A stretch of 64,000 nt of DNA from Actinomadura oligospora ATCC 43269 (GTDB taxonomy: Bacteria > Actinomycetota > Actinomycetes > Streptosporangiales > Streptosporangiaceae): contig NZ_JADG01000010.1 in assembly GCF_000518265.1 (NCBI RefSeq), positions 124,001 to 188,000 on the forward strand, given 5' to 3'. Below are positions 2,317 through 21,451 of the stretch, in pieces (positions within the stretch are counted from its first letter, which is position 1; every line of letters begins with the position of its first letter). The notes beneath the pieces were generated by a model. That model was not told the DNA's origin, ran no database searches, and was given only the letters and a program-made list of their open reading frames with translations. The position numbers and the translations under genes are program-made.

Positions 2317-3012
2317 ATGAACGACGGCACCACCCCCGGCCCCACGCCCCTCCCGCCCCAGGGCCCCACCCCGACCCCGCCCGGCGGCCCAACTCCGCCC
2401 GGCGGCGGGTCGGCCCCGTCGCCGCGGTCGGAGGTGCTGGAGTCGTCCCCGTTCAAGGACGACCTGGACAAGGAACTCGCGGGCCGCGGCCCGAGCGGCC
2501 GGTCACCGAACAGCCCGACGCTCTACCTCGTCGCGGCCGTCCTGCTCGTCGCTGGGTTCGTCGGCGGGATCTTCACGGACAAGGCGATGTCGGACGGCAA
2601 GTCCGGATCGTCCGACAACCGCGCCGCAGGCGGCCCGAACGGACGCGGCTTCGGAGGAGGGTACGGCGGCGGCGGGTACGGCGGTGGCCGCAACGGCGGG
2701 GGCGGCTTCGGCGGGATGACCGCCGGAACCGTCACCAAGGTCGACGGCGACACCCTCTACCTGAAGACGAACGACGGCAAGACGGTCACGGTCAAGACCA
2801 ACGGCTCTACCAAGATCCAGATCACCAGGGCAGGCACGGTCAAGGACCTCAAGACCGGCGAGACGCTCATCGTCCGTGGGGAGGCCGGCAGCGACGGCTC
2901 CGTGACGGCGACCAGCGTCAACGAGGGCGGCGGCTTCGCCGGACGCCGTGGCCAGGGCGGCGCGGGAGGTGACCAGGGCTTCCCGGGCGGCCCGCCCCCG
3001 CAGGGCGACTGA
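2317..3012 (+). CDS. Membrane-anchored Gly-rich protein with small beta (DUF5666-like) domain
   Basis: A 231-residue protein: Pro-rich cytoplasmic N-terminus, one transmembrane helix (TLYLVAAVLLVAGFVGGIF), a Gly/Tyr-rich linker, then a compact domain (TAGTVTKVDGDTLYLKTNDG through GETLIVRGEAGSDG) resembling the DUF5666/OB-like extracellular domain, and a Gly/Pro-rich end. I chose the ATG at 2317 because GAAAGG lies 6 bases before it; a longer in-frame start at 2269 would overlap the permease and lacks such a site. It is the last gene of the MacAB-like operon. The function is unknown; an accessory subunit is inferred. Confidence 0.72.
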   Translation: MNDGTTPGPTPLPPQGPTPTPPGGPTPPGGGSAPSPRSEVLESSPFKDDLDKELAGRGPSGRSPNSPTLYLVAAVLLVAGFVGGIFTDKAMSDGKSGSSDNRAAGGPNGRGFGGGYGGGGYGGGRNGGGGFGGMTAGTVTKVDGDTLYLKTNDGKTVTVKTNGSTKIQITRAGTVKDLKTGETLIVRGEAGSDGSVTATSVNEGGGFAGRRGQGGAGGDQGFPGGPPPQGD

Positions 3013-3229
3013 CACCCGAAAACGCGCCGGAGAACGAGCGCGCGCGGCAGCGGGAGCAGCAGCGGGACGGGGCGCAGGGGACGGCGGGCGCCGGGCGTTC
3101 ACGCGGTGTTCGCCGAACCGTCCGGAGTCCGGAGTGTGCCAGAGTGTCATGCTTTGGTGTGCGGTGGGAAGGTGACGACTGCCGGGTTCCGCTCGGTCCC
3201 CGGCAGGATCTCTCCCCCCGGAGGTCGAC
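3013..3229. promoter_or_regulatory. Intergenic leader of the phosphoesterase gene
   Basis: 217 bases without a gene. Near its end is an 8-bp perfect inverted repeat (CTGCCGGG at 3179-3186, CCCGGCAG at 3199-3206), followed by the ribosome binding site GGAGG at 3220-3224 ahead of the ATG at 3230. A tandem 7-mer TCCGGAG occurs twice just upstream (around 3120-3135). No clear -35/-10 pair is visible. Confidence 0.4.
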
Positions 3230-4129
3230 ATGTCAGGTGCTCCCACCGCCGCCTTCCCGCGTGCGGGCCGCTCCCGCCTCCGCGCCGCCCTCGCGGCGTG
3301 CGCGCTCGCCCTCACGGGCGCGGCGGGCCTCGCCACCGCCCCCGGCGCGGCGAGGGCCGCCACGGTCCCGACGCCGGACCACACCGTGGTCGTGGTCTTC
3401 GAGAACCACTCGTACTCGCAGGTCGTGGGCACCTCCAGCGCGCCGTACATCACCTCCCTCGCCAACGGCGGCGCCAACCTCACCCAGTCCTACGCCCTGA
3501 CCCACCCGAGCCAGCCGAACTACTTCGACCTGTTCTCCGGCAGCACGCAGGGCGTCACCAACGACACCTGCCCCCCGCCCGGCTCCCCCTACTCCACCGC
3601 CAACCTCGGCTCCGAACTCCTGGCCGCCGGACGGACCTGGGCCAGCTACAACGAGGGGCTCCCGTCCCAGGGCTCCACGACCTGCTCCAACAGCGCGGGC
3701 AGGTACGCGCGCAAGCACAACCCGTGGTTCTCGTTCACCAACGTCCCGGCGTCGTCCGGGTTCACGTTCGCGCAGTTCCCGACGGACTACACGACCCTGC
3801 CGAACGTCTCGTTCGTCGTCCCGAACCTGTGCAACGACATGCACGACTGCTCGGTCTCCACGGGCGACACGTGGCTGAAGAGCAAGCTGGACGCCTACGC
3901 CCAGTGGGCGACGACCCACAACAGCGTCCTGGTCGTCACCTTCGACGAGGACAACAGCCTGTCCGGCAACCGGATCGCGACGATCTTCTACGGCGCGCAC
4001 GTGAAGCAGGGCGCGTACTCGACCAGGTACAACCACTTCAACGTCCTGCGCACCCTCGAGGACATGAACGGCACCACCCACGCGGGCAGCGCCGCCACCG
4101 CCACCCCCATCACCGAGATCTGGCAGTAG
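3230..4129 (+). CDS. Secreted phosphoesterase (acid phosphatase / PLC-like family)
   Basis: A 299-residue exported enzyme of the phosphoesterase family (PF04185: acid phosphatases and phospholipase C-like proteins). A basic N-terminus and hydrophobic core (LAACALALTGAAGLATAPGA) form a signal peptide ending near ARAA. The mature part has the metal-site motif VVFENHSYSQVVG, then LTHPSQPNYFDLFSG, CNDMHDC and VVTFDEDN, all typical of the alkaline-phosphatase-like fold. GGAGG stands 5 bases before the ATG. It is single-gene and convergent with the next gene across a strong terminator. The likely role is release of phosphate from organic esters outside the cell. Confidence 0.85.
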   Translation: MSGAPTAAFPRAGRSRLRAALAACALALTGAAGLATAPGAARAATVPTPDHTVVVVFENHSYSQVVGTSSAPYITSLANGGANLTQSYALTHPSQPNYFDLFSGSTQGVTNDTCPPPGSPYSTANLGSELLAAGRTWASYNEGLPSQGSTTCSNSAGRYARKHNPWFSFTNVPASSGFTFAQFPTDYTTLPNVSFVVPNLCNDMHDCSVSTGDTWLKSKLDAYAQWATTHNSVLVVTFDEDNSLSGNRIATIFYGAHVKQGAYSTRYNHFNVLRTLEDMNGTTHAGSAATATPITEIWQ

Positions 4130-7064: not shown

Positions 7065-8291
7065 TCATTGTGAGCGGTCGGGTGTGAAGGTGACCGGGAC
7101 TTGCTTCAGCCCGCGCAGCATCCCCGGATGGCGGGGCAGGTCGGCGACCGGGACCGCGAGGGCCAGGTCCGGGAAGCGGCGCAGCAGCGTCGTCAGCGCG
7201 GTGACGATCTCCAGCCGGGCCAGCGCCGCGCCCAGGCAGTGGTGGATCCCGTGCCCGAACCCGATCTGCGGGTTGTTCTCGCGGAACACGTCCAGCACGT
7301 CCGGGTCGGGGTAGCGGGCCGGGTCGCGGTTCGCCGCGCCGATCGACACGATGACCATCTCGCCGCGCGGGATGACCGTGCCGCCGATCGGGACGTCCTC
7401 CAGCGTGAACCGGGCGACGCCGCGCGCGACCGGGCCGTCGAAGCGGAGCAGCTCGTCCACCGCGCGCGGGATGAGGTCCGGGTCGGCCCGCAGCGCGGCG
7501 AGCTGGTCGGGATGGGTGAGCAGCGTGACGACGGCGTTGGCGAGGAAGCACAGCGTGGTCTCGTGCCCGGACAGGAACAGCATGATCGTCAGGCCGACGA
7601 GCTCGTCGTCGGAGACGTCCTCGTTGGCGTGCGCGGTGACCAGGGCGCTCAGCAGGTCCTCGCCCGGCCGCGCGCGCTTCAGCGCGATCTGCTCCAGGAA
7701 GAACTCCGACATCTCGGCGCGGGCGGCGTCGGCACGTTCCAATGTCGCGCCGTCCGCGGGCGGCATCGCCAGGCCCACCGACCAGTTCCGGAACCGCTCG
7801 CGCGCCAACGGCACGCCGAGCAGTTCGCAGATCACCGCGATCGGCAGCGGCAGCGCCAGCCCCTCGACCAGGTCGCCCCGGCCGTCCGCGGCGCACGTGT
7901 CGAGCAGCTCGTCCACGATCTCCTGGACGCGCGGGGCCAGCCCGGCGACCCGGCGGGCGGTGAACGCCTTCGCCACGATGGCGCGCATCCGGGAGTGGTC
8001 GGGCGGGTCGCTCGCGAGCAGGCTCTCCATCAGGACGTTGCGGCGGCGCTCCGGCGGCAGCCCGGCGACGATGCGCGGCGCGGCCTCCAGGTCGGCGGAG
8101 AACCGGGGGTCGTTGAGCGCGAACACGGCCTCCTCGTAGCCCGTGACGGCCCAGGCGTCGACCTTGCCGCGCATCCGCACGCGGTGCACGGGCGACTCGG
8201 CGCGCATCTCGGCGAACAGCGAGTACGGGTCGAGCCACTGCGCGAAGTCCCGGGGGAGGTCGAAGACCTTGTGCGTGGTTTCAGTGGTCAT
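7065..8291 (-). CDS. Cytochrome P450 (second P450 of the MKYWH operon)
   Basis: A 408-residue bacterial class I P450. I-helix SGHETT (241-246) contains the normal acid-alcohol pair; the K-helix has E280-L-L-R283; the haem loop FGHGIHHCLG places the thiolate at Cys352. AGGAAAGGA lies just before the ATG. It follows the oxygenase gene by 35 bases and closes the run of P450, pentapeptide, methyltransferase and oxygenase genes. It is a canonical monooxygenase, unlike the first P450 of the operon, so it may hydroxylate the peptide product or act on something unrelated. Redox partners are not encoded nearby. Confidence 0.92.
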   Translation of the reverse strand: MTTETTHKVFDLPRDFAQWLDPYSLFAEMRAESPVHRVRMRGKVDAWAVTGYEEAVFALNDPRFSADLEAAPRIVAGLPPERRRNVLMESLLASDPPDHSRMRAIVAKAFTARRVAGLAPRVQEIVDELLDTCAADGRGDLVEGLALPLPIAVICELLGVPLARERFRNWSVGLAMPPADGATLERADAARAEMSEFFLEQIALKRARPGEDLLSALVTAHANEDVSDDELVGLTIMLFLSGHETTLCFLANAVVTLLTHPDQLAALRADPDLIPRAVDELLRFDGPVARGVARFTLEDVPIGGTVIPRGEMVIVSIGAANRDPARYPDPDVLDVFRENNPQIGFGHGIHHCLGAALARLEIVTALTTLLRRFPDLALAVPVADLPRHPGMLRGLKQVPVTFTPDRSQ

Positions 8292-8326
8292 TCAGGTCCT
8301 TTCCTGGCGGAGTGTTCGGGGGGCGG

Positions 8327-9322
8327 TCAGGGCTGGCGGGAGGAGTGGGGACGGGCGGGGCGGACGGCGTCGGTCACCGAGGTGCCGCGGCGCACGCGGC
8401 ACCGCGCGCACGGCTCGCCGGAGTCGAGGTCGAGCTGGAGGGTGCGCTCCTCCGTCCAGCCCTCGAACCGGAACTCGCCCGACCCGACGTGGACGAGCGC
8501 GAACAGCGGGGCGCCGTCCCCGCCGCACAGGACGAGCCGTCCGTCCGCGACGCGCACCGAGCCGGGCACGTCCGGACGCGGCGTCCCGTCGTCGTCCTCC
8601 GACCAGTCCGGGACCGCGGCGGGCATGTCGAACTCGCAGGTCAGCGCGTCCATGTCGGTGGGGCTCAGCGGCTTGGGGGAGCGCGCGTACAGGACGTCCC
8701 GCCACGGCAGCCGGTCGCGGAACTCCGCGGGGAACAGGGCGAGCAGCTCCGGCGTGAGCCCGACGTCGATCACCGGGTGGACGCGCGGCGCGTCCCCGTC
8801 GTTGCGGACGAAGTGGAGCCGGTCGAAGTCGCCGAACCAGAGCCGTCCGGCGTCCCCGTGCCGCTCCTCGCCGCCGATGACCACGACCGCGCCCGGGTTG
8901 GTGATGACCGGGCCGTGCAGCCGCATCGCGCCCCACGGGTAGCCGCACTTGCCGTCCCGGTGCTCGTGGCAGCGCGCGCCCGGCCCGAGCGCCATCAGCC
9001 GGACGGCCCGCAGCGGGGCGGGGATGCCCGCGAGCAGCCCGGCCATGTACGGCGTCCGCGCCAGGTACGGGGTGTCGGCGTGCGGGACCAGGCCCGCGCC
9101 GCCCGGGTCCGTGAGCGCGAGGTCGCCGCCCGGGGAGCGCAGCGACAGGATCCGCCAGTCGATCTCCGCCTCCCGGCGCAGGCCCTCCTGGCCGTAGGAG
9201 CGCTGCGCCTTCCAGGTGGAGTCGCGCAGCGCCTCCGCCTCGGCGGCGAGCACGTCCGCGTCGTAGACCCGGTCCAGCGGGACGGCCGTCGGGATCCGCG
9301 TCTCCGCGCTGACGGCCGTCAT
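8327..9322 (-). CDS. Aspartyl/asparaginyl beta-hydroxylase-like Fe(II)/2-oxoglutarate oxygenase
   Basis: A 331-residue protein whose first 190 residues match the aspartyl/asparaginyl hydroxylase cupin. CHEHRDG gives a His-x-Asp pair (H121, D123), RLHGPV follows, GRLWFGDFDRLHFVRN supplies the distal His170, and Arg180 is the likely 2-oxoglutarate ligand. About 130 extra C-terminal residues, including FRFEGWTEERTLQLD and CARC, are not part of that fold. The ATG overlaps the methyltransferase stop (ATGA), so the two are translationally coupled. In RiPP clusters such enzymes hydroxylate side chains; hydroxylation of the MKYWH product is inferred. Confidence 0.82.
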   Translation of the reverse strand: MTAVSAETRIPTAVPLDRVYDADVLAAEAEALRDSTWKAQRSYGQEGLRREAEIDWRILSLRSPGGDLALTDPGGAGLVPHADTPYLARTPYMAGLLAGIPAPLRAVRLMALGPGARCHEHRDGKCGYPWGAMRLHGPVITNPGAVVVIGGEERHGDAGRLWFGDFDRLHFVRNDGDAPRVHPVIDVGLTPELLALFPAEFRDRLPWRDVLYARSPKPLSPTDMDALTCEFDMPAAVPDWSEDDDGTPRPDVPGSVRVADGRLVLCGGDGAPLFALVHVGSGEFRFEGWTEERTLQLDLDSGEPCARCRVRRGTSVTDAVRPARPHSSRQP

Positions 9323-10089
9323 GGCGCGGCCTTCCGCACCACCACCGCGCCCGGATCGTCCGGGAGGGGCGTCGCCTGCGCGAGCCCGTCGCCCTCCGCC
9401 GGGTGCAGCCCCACGGCGGCCAGGTCCTTCAGGACGGGCTCGGGCCGGTGCATGTTGTGCAGCCGCTCGGTCGGCTCGGTCGCGATCAGCTCGCCGCGCA
9501 CGTACGTCCGGTAGGTCTGGCGCAGCCGGGACAGGTCGGGGCCGAGCCGTTCCGCCGCGGCCGACAGGGTGTACCGGCAGTCGCCGAGGACCTGCTCGTC
9601 CATCACGCGTTCCTCGAGGTCCGGCGCGGGCATGCGCAGCACCGTGTCCATCACGCACAGGCCGCCCGGTTCCAGGTGCGCGGCGATCGCGGCGAACAGC
9701 GTCGGCCGTTCGGCGGGCGGGACGTGCTCCAGCACGCCGCCCATGTAGACGTAGCCGAAGGTGCGGCCGAGGTCGAAGGCCGGCGCGGTGCCCTGCAGCA
9801 CGGTCACCTTGCTCCGCAGGTCGGGACGCTGCGCGAGCTTGGAGATGAGCACGGCCCGCATGGTGGGGGAGCGTTCCAGGCAGGTCAGGGTGCGGGCCCG
9901 CTCGGCGACGGCGAGGGCGAGGCGTCCCGTGCCGGACCCGATCTCCAGCGCGTCCACGTCCGGCGGCGTCAGGTTGGCGAAGAACGACACCGACGGCAGC
10001 GCGTCCTCGCCCGAGCGGAACAGGTCGTAGTAGCCGGGGGTGAAAGCGTACGGATCGCTGAATGCGGTCGGGGCGGCGCCGTTCGACAC
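9319..10089 (-). CDS. Class I SAM-dependent methyltransferase
   Basis: A 256-residue methyltransferase with motif I ALEIGSGTGRLALAVA (47-62), an acidic motif II region (LTCLERS), motif III TFGYVYMGGVLEHVP and EPGGLCVMDTVLRM. I place the start at GTG 10089, preceded by GGGAG with good spacing; an upstream frame extension is Arg/Pro-rich and not family-like. It is the first enzyme gene downstream of the pentapeptide gene, separated from it by a strong hairpin. N- or O-methylation of the crosslinked peptide is a plausible role; related methyltransferases occur in cittilin and myxarylin clusters. Confidence 0.88.
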   Translation of the reverse strand: MSNGAAPTAFSDPYAFTPGYYDLFRSGEDALPSVSFFANLTPPDVDALEIGSGTGRLALAVAERARTLTCLERSPTMRAVLISKLAQRPDLRSKVTVLQGTAPAFDLGRTFGYVYMGGVLEHVPPAERPTLFAAIAAHLEPGGLCVMDTVLRMPAPDLEERVMDEQVLGDCRYTLSAAAERLGPDLSRLRQTYRTYVRGELIATEPTERLHNMHRPEPVLKDLAAVGLHPAEGDGLAQATPLPDDPGAVVVRKAAP

Positions 10090-10138
10090 GTTTCTCCCTG
10101 CGGGATCTGTGCGTAGGGTGGACGGTGGGAAGACGGGC

Positions 10139-10172
10139 GTTCGCGGCCGCCGGTCGCACGACGGCCGCGAAC
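10139..10172 (-). promoter_or_regulatory. Hairpin between pentapeptide gene and methyltransferase gene
   Basis: Perfect 11-bp inverted repeat (10139-10149 with 10162-10172), 12-base loop, no U-run. It sits 24 bases after the MKYWH stop. Such intercistronic hairpins commonly stabilise the upstream message or partly terminate, raising precursor over enzyme. Confidence 0.6.
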
Positions 10173-10195
10173 TCGCGAACCTCATGTGGTGCTCA

Positions 10196-10213
10196 TCAGT
10201 GCCAGTACTTCAT
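10196..10213 (-). CDS. Pentapeptide RiPP precursor MKYWH (biarylitide-type)
   Basis: An 18-base gene reads ATG AAG TAC TGG CAC TGA. It begins 16 bases after the P450 stop and has the best ribosome binding site in the region (AAGGGAGGA, 10218-10226, 4 bases before ATG), which a chance 5-codon frame would not need. The described biarylitide precursor BytA is the pentapeptide MRYYH, crosslinked by the P450 BytO to an N-acetylated Tyr-Tyr-His tripeptide. MKYWH keeps the basic residue 2, Tyr3 and C-terminal His5, with Trp at position 4. Inferred product: a Tyr-His (or Tyr-Trp) biaryl-bridged YWH macrocycle. Too short for gene finders. Confidence 0.82.
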   Translation of the reverse strand: MKYWH

Positions 10214-10217
10214 GGGG

Positions 10218-10226
10218 TCCTCCCTT
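10218..10226 (-). promoter_or_regulatory. Strong ribosome binding site of the MKYWH gene
   Basis: AAGGGAGGA on the minus strand, 4 bases upstream of the pentapeptide ATG and just outside the P450 stop codon. Its strength is the main evidence that the five-codon frame is translated. Confidence 0.8.
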
Positions 10227-10229
10227 CTC

Positions 10230-11567
10230 TCACTCCTCAATGGGTGACGGGACGTCCGACCCTGCGCGGCCCAGCGCGACACGCATCCGGGCGGGGCTGC
10301 GCAGGGTCAGGGCGACCCGGTAATCGGGCGCGCCCAGGGCGCGCAGTGACGCGGATCGCTCCGCGAGGACGGCCAGCACCGTCCGCGTCTGGACGGCGGC
10401 GAAGGGCGCGCCGAGGCAGGAGTGCGAGCCCCTGCCGAACCCCAGGTGCGGATTCGGATGCCGGTCGGGTCTGAGGTCGTGCGGGGCGTCGAACCGCGCC
10501 GGGTCGCGGTTGGCCGCGCCGAGGAACAGCGTCACGTCCTGGCCGGGCTCGATCTTCCTGCCGCCCAGCTCCGCGGGCGCGACGCACACCCTGCCGAGCG
10601 CCTGGACGGGCGAGCAGAAGCGCGCCAGCTCGTCCACCGCGCGCGGCGACGGGTCGGCGGCGAACGCCTCGAGCGCGCCGGGCCGCTCCAGCAGCGTGAT
10701 GACCGCGAGCGACAGCAGCTTGCTCGCCGAGGTGTACCCGGCGTGCAGCAGCACCCGCAGCGTGTTCGCGGCGACCACGCGGTCCAGCTCGCCCGCCTTC
10801 ACCGCGTCGGCCACGGCCCGGACGATCCCGTCCGGCGGCGGGTCGGCGAGCCAGCCGTCGGTGAGGGCCGACAGGTCCGCCCGCGCCGCCATCGCCGGTT
10901 CGAGCCGCTCGGGGAACACCCCGCCGTCCATCCCGGCCGCGACGGTCTCGGCCACGGGCGCCAGCCACGCCGGGTCCGGCTCCGGGACGCGCAGGTACCG
11001 GCAGATCGTCGACACCGTGAGCGGTTCGCAGAAGTCGGTCACGACGTCGAAGGACGACCGTCCGGACAGCCCGTCCAGCAGGGCGCGGGCGCGTTCGGCG
11101 ACCATCGGCGCGGTCTCGGCGCGGTCCAGCTCGCGCAGCGCGTCCACCAGCGGACGGCGCGCGGCGGTGTGCCCGGGCGGGTCGAGCGTCTGGACGCTCA
11201 CCGCCTGCGGCGGCATCGCGACACCGGCGCGGCGCGGGTCGGCGCCGAACCTCGCGCCGTCCCGCAGCACCGCGACGCAGTCGGCGTGCCGGGTCAGCAG
11301 CCAGGTGCCGAGGCCGTCGTGCCAGGCGACCGGGTCGCGCGAACGGAGCTCGTCGAACACCGGGTGCGGGTTCGGGAGCGCCGCGGGCTCGGCCAGAGCG
11401 CGGACGGGGTCGAACGACGAGGCGCCGGAGGCGGGCCGGGAGGCGGCGGGTGGGGGAGCGGCGGGTCGGGAGTCGGCGGGTGAGGGGGCGGGCAGGTGGT
11501 CAGGAGTCGGGCCACGTGCGTACCGGGGGTTCTCCTCGGTGCGAGCGTGTGTCACATCGTTGTCCAC
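10230..11567 (-). CDS. Cytochrome P450, candidate peptide biaryl-crosslinking enzyme
   Basis: A 445-residue P450 with a disordered Pro/Ala-rich N-terminus (about 1-50). The haem loop FGRGSHSCLG gives Cys384, and the K-helix has E313-L-A-R316. The I-helix reads HAGYTSAS: the usual acid-alcohol pair is replaced by Thr-Ser (276-280), suggesting an O2-activation route other than simple hydroxylation. GTG start after GGGGAG. Its stop is 16 bases from the MKYWH ATG, so the two must be co-transcribed. By analogy with BytO it would couple aromatic side chains of the pentapeptide. Confidence 0.9.
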   Translation of the reverse strand: MDNDVTHARTEENPRYARGPTPDHLPAPSPADSRPAAPPPAASRPASGASSFDPVRALAEPAALPNPHPVFDELRSRDPVAWHDGLGTWLLTRHADCVAVLRDGARFGADPRRAGVAMPPQAVSVQTLDPPGHTAARRPLVDALRELDRAETAPMVAERARALLDGLSGRSSFDVVTDFCEPLTVSTICRYLRVPEPDPAWLAPVAETVAAGMDGGVFPERLEPAMAARADLSALTDGWLADPPPDGIVRAVADAVKAGELDRVVAANTLRVLLHAGYTSASKLLSLAVITLLERPGALEAFAADPSPRAVDELARFCSPVQALGRVCVAPAELGGRKIEPGQDVTLFLGAANRDPARFDAPHDLRPDRHPNPHLGFGRGSHSCLGAPFAAVQTRTVLAVLAERSASLRALGAPDYRVALTLRSPARMRVALGRAGSDVPSPIEE

Positions 11568-11729: not shown

Positions 11730-12560
11730 CTACCGGCCGCGCAACTGTTTGAACGCCCGTGTCTGCGCGGTCAGGGCGCGCTCGGTCGGCAGCCGCTCCA
11801 TACTGCTGGCGCCGTAGAACCCATGGCAGTTCTTGGCGTTCGCGAGAACGTACGCCGCGTCCTCGGGATCGGCGATCGGGCCGCCGTGGCACAGCACCAG
11901 GACGTCGTCGCGCTCGTTCAGCGCCGCCTCGGACCACGCGTCGATAAGCGCGACGCAGTCGTCCAGCGACTTGGCGGTCTCCGCGCCGATCGCCCCGCCG
12001 GTCGTCAGGCCCATGTGGCAGACCACGATGTCGGCGCCCGCGCGGGTCATCGCGACCGCGTCGTCCGCCGAGAACACGTACGGCGTCGTCAGCAGGCCGG
12101 CGGCGCGGGCGGCCTCGACCAGCTCGACCTCCAGCGCGTAGCCCATGCCGGTCTCCTCGAGGTTGGCGCGGAACACGCCGTCGATGAGGCCGACCGTGGG
12201 GAAGTTCTGGATGCCGGAGAACCCCAGTTCGCGCAGTCTCGCCAGGAAGGGGCCGCGGAGCAGGAACGGGTCGGTGCCGTTCACCCCGGCGAGCACCGGC
12301 GTGCGCTCCACGACGGGCAGCACCTCGGCGGCCATCTCCAGGACGATCTCGTTGGCGTTGCCGTAGGCGAGCAGCCCCGCCAGCGAGCCGCGCCCGGCCA
12401 TCCGGTACCGGCCGGAGTTGTAGATGACGATGAGGTCGATGCCACCGGCCTCCTCGCACTTGGCCGACAGGCCCGTCCCGGCGCCGCCGCCGACGATCGG
12501 CTCGCCCCGCCGGGCCATGTCGGTGAAGCGCTCGACCAGCTCAGCGCGCGCGAAACTCAT
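11730..12560 (-). CDS. Phosphoenolpyruvate hydrolase-like TIM-barrel protein (Tm-1 C-terminal type)
   Basis: A 276-residue protein of the PEP hydrolase-like family (PF09370): [55 protein letters not shown] and [16 protein letters not shown] are family hallmarks. The ATG overlaps the UPF0261 stop. In tomato Tm-1, and in many fungi and bacteria, these two proteins are halves of a single polypeptide; here they are separate but coupled. The substrate and reaction are not established for the family. Confidence 0.85.
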
Positions 12561-13765
12561 CGGGAGACCTCCTGGAAGGCCGCGACGAGCGCGGCGGCGA
12601 ACTCGGGATCGTTGATGTTGTGCGGCGACCGGACGAGCCGCCGGTCCGCGGTCTGCTCGACCCGGGCCTCCAGGGTCTCGAACAGGACGCGGTCGGCCTC
12701 CGGGTCCCAGAACGGCTGCCCCGGCGCGTCCAGCGCGGACACCCCGCCCTCGGGGAGCAGGAACCGCACGGGCCCGTCCATGGCGTTCAGCTTCGCGGCG
12801 ATGAACTCCGCGATCTCGCGGCACTCGTCCGGGCTGGTGCGCATGAGCGTCACCTGCGCGTTGTGCTCGTAGAACAGCCGGTCGGCGTACCGCGCGGGGA
12901 CGGTGTCGCGCGCGCCGAAGTTCACCATGTCGAGCGCGCCGCACGATCCGACGTACGGGACGTCCGCCCGAGCGAACACGTCGAGCCGTTCCGGGCCCGC
13001 GCTGAACACGCCGCCGCCGACCAGGTCGCAGATCTCGGTGGTGGTGATGTCCAGGACGGCGTTGATCAGGCCGTCCCCGGCCAGTGCCTCCATCGCCCGG
13101 CCTCCGGTGCCGACGGCGTGGAAGACCAGCGTGTCGTGGCCGCCGGACAGCCGCTCGGCGACCGCCGTCACGCACGGCGTCGTCACGCCGAACATCGTCA
13201 GCGCCACGGCCGGACGGTCCTTCGCGGGCGGGATCGGGTGCGTGACCATCCCGGCGAGGGCGTGCGCGGCGTTCCCGATCACCTGCCGGGAGATCCGGTT
13301 CAGCCCGGCGACGTCGGTCACCGAGTGCATCATGGCCAGGTCGCTGACCCCGACGTACGGCGCGACGTCCCCGGCCGCGACCGTGCTGACCAGCAGCTTC
13401 GGGACGCCCACGGGCAGCGCGCGCAGCGCGGGCGCGATCATCGCCGTGCCGCCGCTGCCGCCGAGCCCGAGCACCCCGGCCACATCGCCGCGTCCGGTGA
13501 GGAACCGCTCGAACGCCACGGCCATCGCCGAGACGGCCGTGCCGCGGTCGCCGGTGAACACCGCCTCCGCGCCGCCCGGATGGGACGCCGCGACCTCCGC
13601 CGCCGTCACGTCCGCGCCCTTCGCGTCATGCTCGCGGGTCGACACGTCCACCGTGCGGACCGGCGTCCCCGCCGCCGCCACCAGCTCCGCCGCGTACCTC
13701 AGTTCCGCGCCCTTGGTGTCGAACGTCCCGACCACATAGGCCACCCGACCGTTTTCACCAGCCAT
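12557..13765 (-). CDS. UPF0261 / Tm-1-like ATP-binding domain protein
   Basis: A 402-residue member of UPF0261 (PF06792), the ATP-binding N-terminal module of tomato Tm-1. It contains [39 protein letters not shown] and the [10 protein letters not shown] region. I prefer ATG 13765 (GGGAAG upstream) because the extra N-terminal residues of the longest frame are not conserved. It forms a two-gene unit with the PEP-hydrolase-like gene. Tm-1 blocks tobamovirus RNA replication in plants; the bacterial role is unknown, so no function is assigned. Confidence 0.87.
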
Positions 13766-13887
13766 CAGGCTTCCCACCTCCCTGGACGCTCCCGACGCTA
13801 CCTCGGGCGACACGGTCGGACGCCCCCGCCCCGGGGCGCGCGCCACCGGTCCTTGGACGGGGCGTGAGGGTGGGCCATGATGGCGCC

Positions 13888-15705: not shown

Positions 15706-21237
<5,532 letters not shown>

Positions 21238-21270
21238 CGGCCGAGCCTCCAAACACCCGTGAACACGATG

Positions 21271-21297
21271 GGCGACACCCGGCACCGGGATGTCGCC
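21271..21297 (-). promoter_or_regulatory. Leader hairpin upstream of the carboxylase
   Basis: GGCGACA and TGTCGCC (21271-21277, 21291-21297) enclose a second pairing (CCCGG/CCGGG), giving a 12-bp stem with one bulge, 34 bases upstream of the GTG. It may be a 5'-UTR structure or a regulator site. The remaining gap up to the TetR stop (21452) shows no gene. Confidence 0.4.
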
Positions 21298-21451
21298 TAG
21301 TCCGTCCTCCAGCCTGTCCGATTCCGGCCCTGCACACCAATGCGTGCGGCCACACGTGCCGGGCCCTCTGCCTTGTGGGAACCCCACAAACGGTACGCCG
21401 CCTCTCGGTGACGGTCTTATCACCGTGTGCTGTTTCGCCCCTTCGGGGCGA

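Follow-up and report, generated by a model that had tools for sequence, protein, structure and literature searches.

The 64-kb window of Actinomadura oligospora ATCC 43269 (genome of 9.35 Mb), whose numbering is used here, carries on its minus strand an operon that is almost certainly a biosynthetic cluster for a biarylitide, a minimal ribosomally synthesized and post-translationally modified peptide (RiPP), of the published MKYWH type and in a form with two P450 enzymes. In the order of transcription, it consists of a BytO-type P450 gene, the MKYWH precursor gene (bytA), a hairpin, a methyltransferase gene, a gene resembling those of 2-oxoglutarate (2OG) oxygenases, and a gene for a second P450, here called P450_2. 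At 18 bases, bytA ranks among the shortest known genes, and its expected product is a cyclic peptide of three residues. The class is already known, and the part worth pursuing is the pairing of precursors ending in YWH with the second P450, which is the constant partner across the loci examined. The features are as follows, with their basis in brackets.

10230..11567, minus strand: BytO-type P450, predicted Tyr-His cross-linking enzyme, GTG start (Pfam p450; PDB matches)
10214..10229, minus strand: gap between the P450 stop and bytA, containing the ribosome-binding site AGGGAGGA (sequence)
10196..10213, minus strand: bytA, 18-base precursor gene coding for MKYWH (sequence; same DNA in relatives; pattern counts)
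10139..10172, minus strand: hairpin with a 14-bp stem, between bytA and the methyltransferase gene (a stem recurs here at all seven non-Streptomyces MxYWH loci)
9319..10089, minus strand: class I S-adenosylmethionine-dependent methyltransferase, GTG start, predicted N-terminal methylase (Pfam Methyltransf_25)
8327..9322, minus strand: Fe(II)/2OG oxygenase-like protein of the Asp_Arg_Hydrox family, ATGA-coupled (Pfam Asp_Arg_Hydrox)
7065..8291, minus strand: P450_2, second P450, CYP107-like, with an intact SGHETT motif (Pfam p450; PDB matches; co-occurrence with MxYWH)

Pairing of the second P450 with YWH precursors

The comparison was based on a table of 52 loci (the window, L032-L075, L118, L027-L031, and L117). 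L076 (28% identity and lacking a pentapeptide), L097 (which duplicates L118), and the short-flank loci L098-L101 and L103-L105 were left off, and only one of the MRYLH loci of the genus (L016-L021) was tabulated, re-read as L029. Several of the tabulated loci are short on one side, the smallest flank being 850 bases (L056). P450_2 was present within 6 kb at all 28 MxYWH loci, while at 0 of the 24 tabulated loci with other pentapeptides could the baits used detect P450_2 or another second P450. The initial annotation of this DNA had listed the second P450, but its tie to YWH went unrecognised there.

The same association was found in whole genomes. In the 392 genomes of the Streptomyces-containing genus (the genus of G448), a P450_2 search that made no use of BytO (at least 88% identity to a Streptomyces-type query, E<=1e-130) recovered the enzyme in 14 genomes, exactly those with the 18-base gene; each has one copy of both, 1421-1443 bases apart. 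The Streptomyces loci were placed in this genus (g35) through shared coordinates (L043 and G732; L054 and G745). Among the 65 genomes of the genus of A. oligospora, copies at least 77% identical occurred in the same five genomes as the 18-base gene, and the next best match was about 51% identical; the P450_2 of Actinomadura hibisca (L035) is 77% identical to that of the window. The gene lies on the same strand as BytO in Actinomadura and is divergent from it in Streptomyces, so the pairing outlasts a change of layout. In A. logoneensis, BytO, MKYWH, the hairpin, and P450_2 share a 6.3-kb contig on which the methyltransferase and the oxygenase were not found, and at 16 of 21 Streptomyces loci a different methyltransferase is located near P450_2. 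Relatives with MRYWY, nested in the YWH group with modest support (84-89), are without P450_2, indicating that the enzyme tracks YWH and not Trp4 alone.

Identity alone was dropped as a guide to P450_2 orthology, because values of 41-51% to it are common among the P450s of the genus, and a tree was used together with whole-genome co-occurrence. In this tree (109 rows; P0001, most of P0061-P0120, and the L064-L069 matches excluded), the Actinomadura-Micromonospora and Streptomyces groups fall into one set of 46 rows with support 98.

Several observations weigh against an obligatory pairing. The 46-row set includes four further P450s and open forks, and a single origin of the YWH/P450_2 pairing is therefore not shown. 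The loci share ancestry, with only three changes on the BytO tree required to account for YWH, and the Streptomyces P450_2 is about 52% identical to that of the window, little above unrelated CYP107-like enzymes. The Streptomyces genomes of the 392-genome set partly repeat tabulated loci (L043 and G732 share a coordinate), so the co-occurrence there is not separate proof. In addition, two P450s are not unique to YWH, since at L104/L105 (G227:C13:142440-144739) two tandem BytO-like P450s, about 35% identical to that of the window, follow one MRYAY frame. Our confidence in the obligatory pairing was lowered because of this MRYAY locus and the overlap of the genome sets.

The relatedness of the loci also bears on the idea that P450_2 acts on some other substrate and owes its place beside the biarylitide genes solely to common descent. 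This idea also fits a P450 of A. rupiterrae (L112, 9955-11196) that shares about 50% identity with P450_2, belongs to its clade in the tree, and had no BytO or pentapeptide gene within the 20 kb examined. However, the pairing holds through the change of layout, the loss of enzymes in A. logoneensis, and the differing methyltransferases, and we regard mere neighbourhood as improbable. A more serious alternative, though still a rather doubtful one, is that P450_2 adds no oxygen but makes a second cross-link (e.g., from Tyr3 or His5 to Trp4), which would give a bicyclic tripeptide. A precedent is the second P450 of laurentirubin B, which adds an aryl ether bridge to a cross-linked RiPP according to the available text of that report (PMC11450843), and the MRYWY relatives, with Trp4 and without His5, lack P450_2, which suggests that this P450 requires the YWH product. 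On the other side, SGHETT gives P450_2 the canonical acid-alcohol pair, its nearest PDB relatives, PikC and EryF, are hydroxylases, and bonding of adjacent residues in so small a ring would presumably be strained. We therefore prefer oxygen addition, probably at Trp4, as the first choice for the chemistry of P450_2, and a second bond as the second choice.

The pentapeptide gene and its predicted cross-linking P450

The frame ATG AAG TAC TGG CAC TGA (10196-10213, minus strand) starts 16 bases past the P450 stop, behind the strong ribosome-binding site, and is the sole [ATG/GTG]-x-[Y/F/W/H]-x-[Y/W/H]-stop frame on both strands of the window. The gene order, the single strand, the 16-base spacing, and the 18-base frame are all as the initial annotation described them (sequence, Pfam), and its view of a biarylitide-type operon built on MKYWH was right, as relatives have pentapeptide genes with a linked BytO-type P450. 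Very short frames generally can arise by chance, and the frame might have done so between two enzyme genes. This origin is already contradicted by the results and is extremely improbable. Besides the single such frame in 64 kb, the M-x-YWH-stop pattern (ATGMRNTAYTGGCAYTRA, restricted to an ATG start and a TAA/TGA stop) is found at one place in the A. oligospora genome, in 5 of the 65 genus genomes (own included), and in 14 of the 392 genomes, whereas the reversed control pattern occurs in none of either set (0/392 and 0/65); a BytO homologue adjoins 19 of 19 matches.

Relatives of the BytO-type P450 at E<=1e-60 were found in 15 of the 65 genus genomes (own included), with a pentapeptide gene at all 15 loci (MKYWH at 5, MRYWY at 2, MRYRH at 1, MRYLH at 6, and MRHVH at 1). 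In a class sample of 394 genomes, nine non-own matches in eight genomes each had a pentapeptide frame nearby, for example MRYYH, MRYAY, and MFYDH. Close relatives retaining the P450 without the pentapeptide, which had been named beforehand as the observation that would speak against the operon, were thus absent from the 15 genus genomes and the nine class-sample matches. At L037 from Nocardioides speluncae, which is outside both sets, a BytO relative (2338-3483, 56% identical) is followed by a frame for MRYIR (or MPMRYIR) with a ribosome-binding site and no aromatic fifth residue, and this locus is without P450_2.

Two tandem copies of the pentapeptide gene were seen near one P450 at L015, L060, L061, L066-L069, and L075 (MRYRH, MRHVH, MRHAH, MRYLH). 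At L028 (7592-9151) and L029 (7908-9572), MRYRH or MRYLH is followed by a protein of 520-555 residues with a signal-peptide-like start, by eye a possible secreted enzyme.

Biarylitides with MKYWH were published in July 2026 (PMC13417212). As given in the available text of that paper, AchB of A. hibisca cross-links Nle-KYWH in vitro from a Tyr carbon to the His N-tau, with a preference for Trp as residue 4 and a yield of <2% when residue 5 is Tyr or Trp. On the BytO tree (without the fragmentary L036), a placement that the initial annotation had suggested, the P450 of the window groups with that of A. hibisca L035 with support 99. The two proteins are 72% identical, and their I-helix motif VLLHAGYTS is the same. 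A His in the I-helix of P450Blt directs C-N bonding, according to the available text of PMC10929621, and it is kept in the window when mapped by motif, not by structure. Thr-Ser at the position of the usual acid-alcohol pair is in keeping with a cross-linking role. Because of the AchB product, the 72% identity, and the shared I-helix with its kept His, a Tyr-His C-N bond is the expected first step. Of the two bonds proposed earlier for MKYWH, Tyr-His is thus favoured by analogy with AchB and is most likely, and not Tyr-Trp. MKYWH has the five residues of a biarylitide precursor, aromatic at positions 3 and 5, its closely linked BytO homologue lies 16 bases upstream, and both the identical precursor and the position of the P450 in the AchB clade assign the operon to the AchB group. 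A P450-made cross-link between the side chains of residues 3 and 5 is expected from AchB at 72% identity.

The best PDB matches of the BytO-type P450 include RufO (9DUJ, sequence = 8spp) and P450Blt, and RufO scores slightly higher, which would fit a nitration of Tyr3 as in rufomycin biosynthesis, with no cross-link. However, the A. hibisca locus protein, at 72% identity, is the counterpart of the cross-linker AchB, and no nitric oxide synthase was among the six proteins scanned at the locus, the rest of the genome not having been searched for one; nitration is very unlikely. Among the same six proteins there was no leader-removing protease, and the characterised biarylitide clusters are likewise described without a protease gene in the available text of PMC12951456.

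Relation to known clusters

The operon and the AchB system are alike in the precursor, the homologous P450 (72%), and the five-gene order at L035. However, for MKYWH the available parts of the main text of PMC13417212 deal with AchB alone, and the terms second P450, two P450, and methyltransferase are absent from the main text. What tailoring enzymes do and what biarylitides are for is not settled in that paper. The following comparisons are likewise limited to the available text of the reports. Myxarylin bytAOZ shares a pentapeptide, a BytO-type P450, and a methyltransferase, CorZ, whose target is the N-terminus left once the leader is gone (PMC12951456; PMC8708641), but its precursor is MNYLH, it has one P450, a 2OG oxygenase is unmentioned, and its methyltransferase is only distantly similar to that of the window. 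The savABTH cluster of Saccharothrix variisporea (MRYVH) also combines a pentapeptide, a BytO-type P450, and an Asp/Asn-hydroxylase-like gene; in contrast, it has Val4, a C-C cross-link, and an amidinotransferase, and no second P450 is reported (PMC13417212). The atropopeptide laurentirubin B is likewise a two-P450 RiPP in which the second enzyme acts after the first, but it has a long leader with a KSLK motif, a larger core, and no pentapeptide precursor (PMC11450843). The KSLK motif is absent from MKYWH, whose leader is Met-Lys only.

Most of what had been put forward as distinctive falls in this comparison. MKYWH and Trp4 are published with AchB (PMC13417212), linked methyltransferases and a tendency towards a basic second residue had already been described (PMC9113118), and the P450 precedes the precursor at all 28 MxYWH loci, so the novelty of MKYWH, Lys2, and the P450-first order was rejected. 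The available text of PMC8708641 holds that, outside myxobacteria, no biarylitide cluster has a methyltransferase gene, a statement contradicted by PMC9113118 and by the loci described here. Of the three extra enzymes, the linked methyltransferase (PMC9113118) and a hydroxylase beside MRYVH (PMC13417212) were known, and the second P450 stands as the distinguishing one. The YWH/second-P450 pairing is not discussed in the main-text passages of the biarylitide literature that were covered. A five-gene cluster with the layout of the window and the precursor MRYWH was also observed in Micromonospora sp. MW-13, the P450Blt strain (L040, 9001-13289).

Predicted tailoring enzymes, hairpin, and proposed pathway

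Pfam assigned the four enzymes to p450, Methyltransf_25, Asp_Arg_Hydrox, and p450. The methyltransferase resembles peptide N-methylases, namely the daptide_MTase model (below cut-off), 3G2M, which we take to be a glycopeptide N-methylase, and distantly CorZ (9SOT). Its gene had been drawn from the first ATG of the mechanical ORF (open reading frame) at 10185; the layout was right, but the start is more likely the GTG at 10089, behind AGGGAGAAAC. An ATGA overlap at 9319-9322 joins it to the hydroxylase gene. The oxygenase conserves H121, D/E123, H170, and R180, presumably, from its family, the ligands of iron and 2OG. In the 52-locus table its gene is found with YWH, YLH, YRH, and YDH cores, and a 568-residue chain (P0193) carries methyltransferase and Asp_Arg_Hydrox domains, like a fusion of the two neighbouring genes. 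The methyltransferase and the oxygenase therefore probably act on features common to several biarylitide peptides. The oxygenase as an exclusively biarylitide enzyme was rejected, since four of the five non-own genomes with a match to it in the class sample had no BytO or pentapeptide in the examined stretch.

At 7 of 7 non-Streptomyces MxYWH loci, the stretch that follows bytA contains an uninterrupted stem of 14-20 bp, counting G-U pairs, and A. hibisca, Rugosimonospora, and Micromonospora form it from differing sequences. Energy z-scores ranged from -1.7 (window) to -5.7 (whole gaps); at L036 the value was -0.38 with a 100-base stretch and -3.85 with the whole gap. The window's own hairpin, weak alone at z -1.7, counts against a role for it, and the argument is therefore its recurrence at the same position. 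The folded Streptomyces loci also had strong stems downstream, which could be terminators.

The operon boundaries are taken as BytO through P450_2. Upstream are PEP_hydrolase and UPF0261 genes (11730-13846, minus strand), and the downstream neighbour is, judged by eye, a LysR-like gene. The same flanking genes border the operon of A. harenae, that of A. rupiterrae, and, up to the contig end, that of A. logoneensis; they were not found in the stretches examined of A. hibisca, Rugosimonospora, and Micromonospora. Farther away, a 1905-residue ORF (15706-21423, minus strand) resembles, on visual inspection, a single-chain acyl-CoA carboxylase.

In the pathway we propose, the 18-base gene would yield MKYWH, and the BytO-type P450 would link Tyr3 to the N-tau of His5, as AchB does. 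P450_2, with its acid-alcohol pair intact, would then oxidise the cross-linked YWH core, the first choice being hydroxylation of Trp4. A peptidase encoded elsewhere would trim Met-Lys, the methyltransferase would methylate the freed N-terminus, and the 2OG oxygenase may hydroxylate a residue common to several biarylitide classes, Tyr3 or His5. The hairpin after bytA may hold the precursor message above the enzyme message. For this scheme in full, the chances are about even.

We consider it somewhat more probable than not that YWH biarylitides are an obligatory two-P450 RiPP subtype, in which the in vitro product of AchB is only an intermediate. The native metabolite would be a Trp-oxidised or bicyclic tripeptide that in this operon is N-methylated and hydroxylated too; up to four enzymes would produce it from an 18-base gene. 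The pairing hints that the pathway continues beyond the published YWH product, and, if true, the two-P450 reading could explain failed in vivo searches for the plain YWH product. By joining one precursor sequence with one extra P450, it names the next enzyme to add and the masses to seek, and A. logoneensis, in which the two P450s alone accompany the precursor on the 6.3-kb contig, is a natural minimal version.

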